Positions 24,514 through 26,054 of a stretch of DNA of 64,000 bases are shown here, piece by piece. Position 1 is the first letter of the stretch, and every line of letters begins with the position of its first letter. Under the pieces are notes generated by a model. It saw only the letters and a list, made by a program, of their open reading frames with translations, made no database searches and was not told where the DNA came from. Source of the stretch: Methylocaldum szegediense (GTDB lineage Bacteria > Pseudomonadota > Gammaproteobacteria > Methylococcales > Methylococcaceae); contig NZ_OX458333.1 in NCBI RefSeq assembly GCF_949769195.1, forward strand, positions 3,692,001-3,756,000, read 5' to 3'. The position numbers were made by a program, and so were the translations under genes.

Positions 24514-24522
24514 TGGTATACT
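24514..24522 (+). promoter_or_regulatory. Candidate extended -10 promoter for the 24615-25917 gene pair
   Basis: TGG directly followed by TATACT (24517-24522) is an extended -10 element. No clear -35 hexamer stands 17 bases upstream, as is typical of this promoter class. It would give a leader of about 85 bases before the ATG at 24615. Confidence 0.4.
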
Positions 24523-24614
24523 CGGGGAGAATTTTTTACGATCGGCTTGTGATATTACCCATGCAAATCGGTCACTTTGTCAGGTAGATCTTCACTTCTT
24601 GGGAGAGGTTAGAC

Positions 24615-25250
24615 ATGATGGCGCCTGAGAACCTCGACGCGAACTTGATTACGGATGTAAACGTCCAGGAATATTTCAGGGAATCGGTAACAACGGCTTT
24701 ATCGAATCAGAAAGTCGATGCCGGGGAGGATACCGTTTACTACATCGTCAATTTGCTCGCTTATTTTACCGAGGCGGACAAATTGTTTACCCAGACCGCC
24801 GAGGGTGTGATCTTGCAACCGTTGGCCCTGATCTACGCAGAAGCGTTGGAAGCGGCAAGCTTGGAAGAACGGCATCAAATCCTGCGCCGGCTAGGAGACG
24901 TGGCACTCCTGATATCGGGTCTGTTTTCTTCCAGCCTCAATCGTAAGCTCGTCGACGTCGACTATTACATCGCGATGGGAGGCACTGCGTACGGCTATCT
25001 ATCCGATTTGAACCGTGGTACCGTAAGGGGCAAGGCGCTCTGCGCGATTTTCGGCGAGCTTTCCGAGAAATTTCAGTTGTTCGTGGATGTCCTTTCAGAG
25101 GTCGGCGAAAGATCCTCGATAGGTTCGTGCACGGATATTATGCGGCTTTACGAGATTTGGCTCCGAACCGGTAGCAAGCGTGCAGCCGAAAAATTGAGGA
25201 AACTGGGTATAGAACCGGCCCACGGCTCGGTCAGCCGCCGGCACAATTGA
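24615..25250 (+). CDS. Conserved-looking protein of unknown function (first of a pair)
   Basis: I do not recognise this 211-residue soluble protein. It has no signal peptide, membrane segment or known catalytic motif and looks largely helical. Distinctive stretches are DTVYYIVNLLAYFTEADKLF, FSSSLNRKLVDVDYYIAMGG and TAYGYLSDL; the C-terminus is basic (SKRAAEKLRKLG). A good GGGAGAGG site lies just before the ATG at 24615 (a second ATG follows at once). It is 13 bases from the next gene, and the two share a promoter candidate and a terminator. Codon use looks like that of the neighbours. Real gene: very likely. Function: unknown. Confidence 0.82.
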   Translation: MMAPENLDANLITDVNVQEYFRESVTTALSNQKVDAGEDTVYYIVNLLAYFTEADKLFTQTAEGVILQPLALIYAEALEAASLEERHQILRRLGDVALLISGLFSSSLNRKLVDVDYYIAMGGTAYGYLSDLNRGTVRGKALCAIFGELSEKFQLFVDVLSEVGERSSIGSCTDIMRLYEIWLRTGSKRAAEKLRKLGIEPAHGSVSRRHN

Positions 25251-25263
25251 TGGAGGCGCTGTC

Positions 25264-25917
25264 ATGCGCCTGAATGCCCTACAGAAGCTGCTGGAGCGTA
25301 TCTATCGCGTCGAGGTGGGGCTCGACGTGGAAGATTTCCTAATTACCGCCCCGGAGCTTGCCCGACAGCTGGACACGAGCATTAATCCGCGCGAGAGCAA
25401 AGAGAAGCTCTTGGTCTCGCAGCAAGGCGACCAGCTGGACCTTGCCCTGTTTCTGGATGCCTCGGTAATGGCTCGCCTATCCGAGGATGATCCCCTGGTC
25501 AGTCTTCATTCCGAGAATTTCGTCGACTTCCTCTTAGCTGTGGAAGGCGTTAGCCACTTCCTTTATCTCATTTGGAATGCAGGCGTCGAGCGGGGCGTGA
25601 CCTTGTTGGAACTGGAGATGCAGGCCGAGGTGGACAAATTCGTAACGGCCACGTCGCTTTGGAAGCATCAAGGCCGGAATCTCGTGTCCTCAGAGCTTCG
25701 GTATTGTTTGTTCGAAGCGCCGGCTTACGATGCGGCATTGGATCGGGTCCAACGCCAGCGCTACGAAGACGCCAATCATTATGCAGGCAAGTATTGCCTT
25801 AGATTGGAGAATCGTTATCTGAAGACCGCGAGGGCCGGTGCGATGATGGAAGAACTCCGCCGATTCTATCGACTTACGCAAGGCGAAAAGATCCGGCTGA
25901 TCGATTCAGCCGCTTGA
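25264..25917 (+). CDS. Conserved-looking protein of unknown function (second of a pair)
   Basis: A 217-residue soluble protein that I cannot assign. It begins MRLNALQKLLERIYRVEV. It contains a run of charged helices (LELEMQAEVDKFVTATSLW), a hydrophobic patch VEGVSHFLYLIWNAG and a Tyr-rich stretch YEDANHYAGKYCLRLE. There are no membrane segments and no metal-binding cluster. A GGAGG site precedes the ATG. It ends 14 bases before a terminator hairpin. The pairing with the preceding unknown gene suggests one shared process, possibly as interacting partners; that is inference from operon structure. Confidence 0.82.
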   Translation: MRLNALQKLLERIYRVEVGLDVEDFLITAPELARQLDTSINPRESKEKLLVSQQGDQLDLALFLDASVMARLSEDDPLVSLHSENFVDFLLAVEGVSHFLYLIWNAGVERGVTLLELEMQAEVDKFVTATSLWKHQGRNLVSSELRYCLFEAPAYDAALDRVQRQRYEDANHYAGKYCLRLENRYLKTARAGAMMEELRRFYRLTQGEKIRLIDSAA

Positions 25918-25931
25918 CCTGCTAAAAGAAG

Positions 25932-25961
25932 AGGGCGTGCGATGACTCACAAGCCCTTTTT
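25932..25961 (+). terminator. Rho-independent terminator of the unknown pair
   Basis: AGGGC (25932-25936) pairs with GCCCT (25953-25957), extended inward by GTG/CAC, and runs into TTTTTA. It separates the pair from the oppositely oriented tRNA gene that begins seven bases later. Confidence 0.75.
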
Positions 25962-25967
25962 ATTCGA

Positions 25968-26054
25968 TGGTGCCGAGGGCGAGAATCGAACTCGCACTTG
26001 GTTTCCCAAACCAGATTTTGAGTCTGGCGCGTCTACCAGTTCCGCCACCTCGGC
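25968..26054 (-). tRNA. tRNA-Leu (anticodon CAA)
   Basis: On the minus strand the 87-base gene runs from GCCGAGG (acceptor 5' side) to CCTCGGC-A-CCA, with CCA encoded. The anticodon stem CCAGA/TCTGG holds the loop CTCAAAA, giving anticodon CAA, which reads UUG leucine. A long variable arm (class II) and GTTCGATTC in the T arm fit tRNA-Leu. A perfect TATAAT lies just upstream. I see no attachment-site duplication or integrase next to it. Confidence 0.96.

Follow-up and report, generated by a model that had tools for sequence, protein, structure and literature searches.

The window we analysed, a 64 kb stretch of the Methylocaldum szegediense genome, contains two adjacent genes, here called A and B. 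The genes and the signals around them are:

24514..24522, plus strand: candidate promoter of the A–B pair, an extended −10 (TGGTATACT), kept in 4/4 same-genus upstream regions aligned
24601..24608, plus strand: ribosome binding site of gene A (GGGAGAGG), before the ATG, read from the sequence
24615..25250, plus strand: gene A, 211 aa, predicted to be mostly helical and cytosolic; belongs to a larger unnamed gammaproteobacterial family
25252..25256, plus strand: ribosome binding site of gene B (GGAGG), before the ATG, likewise read from the sequence
25264..25917, plus strand: gene B, 217 aa, with a predicted gluzincin-like fold in which EGxSH would replace HExxH
25543..25557, plus strand: codons E94-G-V-S-H98 of B, on predicted helix 83–107, marked by residue invariance
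25615..25638, plus strand: codons E118-M-Q-A-E122-V-D124-K125 of B, on predicted helix 114–135, marked by residue invariance
about 25928..25961, plus strand: terminator hairpin 3' of gene B, from folding energy

Both open reading frames (211 and 217 codons), the 13-base gap between them and the good ribosome binding sites before the two ATGs are present as the first-pass annotation had described them. The pair is flanked by a nudix-type gene and a tRNA gene, with a queA-like gene after the tRNA (nudix and queA were named by eye). The tRNA gene lies on the minus strand at 25971–26054, directly after the A–B terminator.

The same annotation had proposed an extended −10 and a clear terminator. 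The promoter candidate sits within the block TTGnTATACTCGnGGAGA, which in our alignment is common to four same-genus genomes despite diverged flanks, and the preservation of this block amid differing bases supports it, although a simple consensus promoter scan upstream of A found no full −35/−10 pair. The hairpin after B folds at −15.1 kcal/mol (z −2.5, with 5 of 200 shuffles equally good) and its 3' arm leads into U's. It is missing from the output of the consensus terminator scan and has no recognisable counterpart in the three relatives aligned.

Both genes are under purifying selection. Compared with a same-genus locus (L034), gene A has a dN of about 0.065 and a dS of about 1.03, and gene B a dN of about 0.090 and a dS of about 1.96, the latter being near saturation. 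Against a second locus (L032) the values are 0.020 and 0.30 for A and 0.027 and 0.31 for B. Over these four comparisons dN/dS is about 0.05–0.09. Hence, both genes are translated and constrained, and their coding capacity is not due to chance. The peak 19-residue hydropathy is 1.42 for A and 1.52 for B, so that neither contains a clear membrane segment, as the annotation had stated, and both proteins look soluble. At one further locus (L057, 1495–2119) gene A is broken across two frames and B is matched in one piece; the frame break may be a sequencing error.

The pair is also conserved. In an order-level draw A is present in 27 of 301 genomes. A class-level draw of 369 gammaproteobacterial genomes gave matches to the B profile in 40 and to the A profile in 157. 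If close relatives of A are defined by an E of 1e-40 or better (36 of the 369 genomes), then close A and B occur together in 31 genomes, close A alone in five and B alone in nine (9 of 40 B genomes). The cut-off excludes 121 genomes with weaker A-like matches, and seven of these are among the nine B-only genomes. The co-occurrence across the 369 genomes is strong (Fisher p of about 7e-32, with relatedness left in), and in 30 of the 31 genomes that have both close relatives the two genes are adjacent on the same strand. A phylum-wide draw matched B in one of 279 genomes, the window's own. Since the genomes listed there share one class, this draw has little bearing on other classes.

A scan of genome contigs found 197 loci that encode an A relative, the best 80 of which we analysed. 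In 65 of these 80, A is followed on the same strand by B. The gap could be measured in 58 of the 65 A–B loci (in five of the other seven the profile start has no start codon close by, and in two the B match is incomplete); its median is 12 bases, and 53 loci have a gap of 50 bases or less. Among the 15 A loci without an adjacent B are several Methylococcaceae and one locus (L066) with little sequence past A. In two of the 15, rho directly follows A. Five A-only loci of Methylococcaceae type have a common neighbour of about 160 aa, and four of these five also have a protein of about 270 aa. The A–B operon is real, conserved and unnamed, and the first-pass description of two unassigned genes that form a real, regulated unit is borne out by adjacency, by co-occurrence and by the absence of a convincing family match in the scans described below. 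Homologues are not rarely adjacent. That the two proteins act together, which the annotation had supposed, is still something we infer, given that 15 of 80 A loci have no B beside A and 9 of 40 B genomes have no close A.

Two further observations concern the relatives of A in the sample. A is 91% identical to its counterpart in Methylocaldum sp. 14B (L062). A record titled Methyloversatilis universalis (L061) carries an A that is 96% identical to the window's, and its MAG label looks wrong. In the Methylocaldum sp. 14B genome (L033, 2137–2437, and also L062), a repeat lies between A and B, right before the B start codon; it is dispersed, about 285 bases long and has the inverted ends CCTAGAAACGGCAGTTGG and CCAACTGCCGTTTCTAGG. 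Four same-genus genomes contain 45 to 56 matches each, many of them partial. The repeat resembles a MITE or REP-like element that has split the A–B operon.

Neither protein belongs to a family that we could name. Scans of A and B with Pfam, NCBIfam and PADLOC gave no convincing match; the single PADLOC match is a weak one of A to HamB (E 0.028), with none for B. When the scans were extended to the relatives (Pfam on 78 B and 91 A proteins, NCBIfam on the 78 B proteins), only scattered weak matches appeared, in one to three members each, and over the 78 B members there was no peptidase-family pattern. A sequence search of solved structures returned nothing for B and four weak matches for A (E 0.2 or worse), and collections of phages and plasmids contained no match to either protein. 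Thus, the profile searches yielded no strong match to known families with unrelated roles. In the portions available to us of the literature on gluzincin pseudo-enzymes, minigluzincin and groEL neighbours, the A–B pair was not found.

A set of residues in B is strictly conserved. For the alignments, we first removed incomplete rows and any row containing stops or unknown residues, and then dropped rows more than 92% identical to a kept row (from 130 to 91 for A and from 105 to 78 for B); the L001 and L032 rows were substituted by the window's own proteins. The 78 aligned B proteins are 37–89% identical to the window's B. In all 78 rows E47, E94, G95, S97, H98, E118, E122, D124 and K125 are invariant, as are F150, Y167, A170, A174, R199 and R203. 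The motif EGxSH-x19-ExxxExDK is found in all 105 fetched B proteins and in six of six more divergent ones, in which R199 and R203 are sometimes lost. H98 comes four residues after E94 on a single predicted helix, which is the distance between the two His of HExxH, and E118 and E122 follow H98 at x19 and x23.

This arrangement resembles an altered metallopeptidase site. The thermolysin motif has the spacing HExxH-x19-E-x3-D, and judged by its position along the predicted structure, EGxSH would occupy the place of HExxH in B. HExxH itself is present in none of the 105 fetched B proteins and none of the six more divergent ones. Since this defining motif was looked for and is absent, we do not assign B to the gluzincin peptidases. 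The first-pass annotation had seen no catalytic motif in either protein. This stands for known motifs, but B has the invariant cluster just described. A decayed site would be expected to drift, and the site in B does not, which argues for a retained function other than ordinary peptide cleavage.

The predicted structure of B is confident (pLDDT 95, pTM 0.92). The model has short N-terminal helices, two neighbouring strands (47–54 and 57–64), a short helix, helices 83–107 and 114–135, and then more helices. VIA-align gave 155 chains with a Z of 2 or more, and the 50 matches listed are all zincin metallopeptidases: 34 are ACE/ACE2, eight insulin-regulated aminopeptidase, five lethal factor, and one each oligoendopeptidase F, collagenase H and VgrG2b. 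The top match is insulin-regulated aminopeptidase (Z 9.5, rmsd 3.8 over 172 residues, model range 1–217), with a Z below the level of about 13 at which VIA-align advises caution for mostly helical models. The rows were drawn from Foldseek's own pool, which is dominated by ACE2 entries, and the absence of a family from the fold lists does not exclude it. The best Foldseek E-values for B, 0.47 and 0.34 in the two libraries, are non-significant. Among the 50 matches listed (of 220) from the viral structure library, seven carry the name of a zincin or peptidase, and IrrE and SprT-like proteins take ranks 2 and 3. Taken as a prediction, B probably has a gluzincin/zincin-like fold.

Homology at the level of sequence profiles is a different matter. 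In hhalign comparisons B reached probabilities of 0.2–1.3% against 20 M1 peptidases and 0.1–0.4% against 20 M3 peptidases, and nine control families, at 0.0–3.3%, scored as well or better (A was also compared). As these values of 0.1–1.3% are no better than the controls, we see no profile link between B and M1 or M3.

Gene A is less informative. Its model is mostly helical with moderate confidence (pLDDT 77), and in the fold search it matched TPR-like and other helical proteins only in part, the best with a Z of 7.0 over 85 residues. We take these model-based matches to be uninformative. There is also a distant A-like family of the LRDVGDxCLLYSGLFP type, which is of similar length and matches the A profile at an E of about 1e-20. 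In contrast to A, these proteins do not have B beside them in the loci viewed, and they are a separate unnamed family. In 10 of the 20 loci viewed (L167, L169–L175, L178 and L185) their genes have glyQ/glyS or an ATP-pyrophosphatase-like gene nearby, and twice a TusA-like gene follows the latter (all names given by eye).

The genomic setting offers one lead. groESL lies near A in at least 21 of the 80 loci, many of which have short flanks: 17 times upstream and codirectional, three times divergent and once downstream. Other A loci are beside rho/trxA or degP/ntrBC-like genes. On the A tree, the near or far position of groESL requires 10 changes, which is below all 50 shuffles (13–21); this count covers 58 loci (21 near, 37 far), after 22 of the 80 were excluded for short flanks. 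Hence, the position is inherited, yet it has been gained or lost many times. A test among the groESL arrangements only gave three changes for the 17 codirectional rows, with 19 of 500 shuffles as low; for all groups together 45 of 200 shuffles were as low. This test has no bearing on near versus far. With a midpoint root and weakly supported deep branches, the codirectional arrangement is found near the root as drawn and on several other branches, and the divergent one in two separate clades and one outgroup.

Could A and B then help GroEL or deal with its client proteins, and could this be why they are kept beside groESL? The frequency of this neighbourhood and its inheritance on the tree speak for the idea. 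However, common ancestry of the position may suffice as an explanation. Clear terminators lie between groEL and A at two of the four loci checked (they are not clear in the other two), which implies separate transcripts there, and the 64 kb window has no homologue of GroEL, GroES, Rho or thioredoxin. We consider the explanation quite improbable, and a chaperone link is only a lead. It is harder still to believe that A and B are a toxin–antitoxin or phage-defence pair. They are two small adjacent genes with their own promoter and no known function, as such a pair would be, but apart from the one weak PADLOC match of A, nothing in the defence scan, or in the phage and plasmid collections, matches them, and their neighbours are often housekeeping genes. 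We would be very surprised if this were the answer.

Two other explanations concern B itself. B could be an active metalloenzyme with Glu94, His98, Glu118 and Glu122 as new ligands and another residue activating water, and A could be its regulatory or substrate-recruiting subunit. A fully invariant cluster of carboxylates and His, carried by two predicted helices next to each other, is what one typically sees in catalytic or metal sites. Yet in every B sequence the place where the canonical general base would be is taken by Gly, and B matches no known enzyme family in the scans run, so that we regard an active enzyme as somewhat unlikely. Alternatively, the invariant residues could form a buried structural network or a surface that binds A, no metal would be involved, and the gluzincin likeness would reflect a common arrangement of helices and a hairpin. 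The non-significant Foldseek E-values, the lack of a profile link to M1 or M3 and a Z that is moderate for a helical protein all fit this explanation. A generic helical arrangement would not be expected to give 50 listed VIA-align matches from six peptidase groups that are all zincins, nor zincins at ranks 2 and 3 in a second library. On balance, we think it unlikely.

Our best reading, which we hold tentatively, is that A and B make up a cytosolic unit of two proteins: B, a gluzincin-like protein that has been rewired and is no peptidase, and its mostly helical partner A. B would be an isolated gluzincin catalytic-domain fold (thermolysin/M1-like). In its HExxH helix, altered to EGxSH, the first metal-binding His would have become Glu and the catalytic Glu would have become Gly, with His98 and the downstream Glu118 and Glu122 retained. 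Such a protein would not be an ordinary peptidase; its groove and the Glu/His/Glu/Glu cluster would more likely bind a metal or a peptide or protein ligand. Contact between A and B is presumed here, and the groESL neighbourhood suggests that the unit may have a role in protein handling.

One could go further and argue that B founds a gluzincin-fold family whose protease site was rebuilt as an invariant Glu/His/Glu/Glu cluster with a new, non-proteolytic function, and that B and its partner A are an old module of the Gammaproteobacteria. This stronger claim is conceivable, although we are inclined to doubt it. In any case, two families without a Pfam or NCBIfam model have been kept adjacent across methanotrophs and many other Gammaproteobacteria. 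If B has a protease fold whose site was indeed rebuilt and not merely lost, it would clearly exemplify a peptidase put to a new use. Eight invariant residues would then be immediately testable, and the partner gene would point to where the function lies.

How does B compare with known proteins? Gluzincin metallopeptidases include M1 (insulin-regulated aminopeptidase), M2 (ACE2), M3 and M4 (thermolysin), and the fold predicted for B resembles their catalytic domain. As in gluzincins, an i/i+4 pair ending in His lies on a helix and a Glu follows at the family spacing on a downstream helix, but HExxH reads EGxSH in every B sequence seen. B also differs from these enzymes in being a stand-alone protein of 217 residues, without detectable profile similarity to M1 or M3. 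E118 trails H98 by the thermolysin spacing, and E122 is found where thermolysin has its second-shell Asp. A further parallel is the match to residues 60–255 of 1pwv (Z 5.1), which we take to be the non-catalytic first domain of anthrax lethal factor. That domain belongs to a secreted multi-domain protein, and its likeness to B is one of predicted fold. Like B as predicted, it is a zincin-like domain without a working HExxH, and it serves protein binding.
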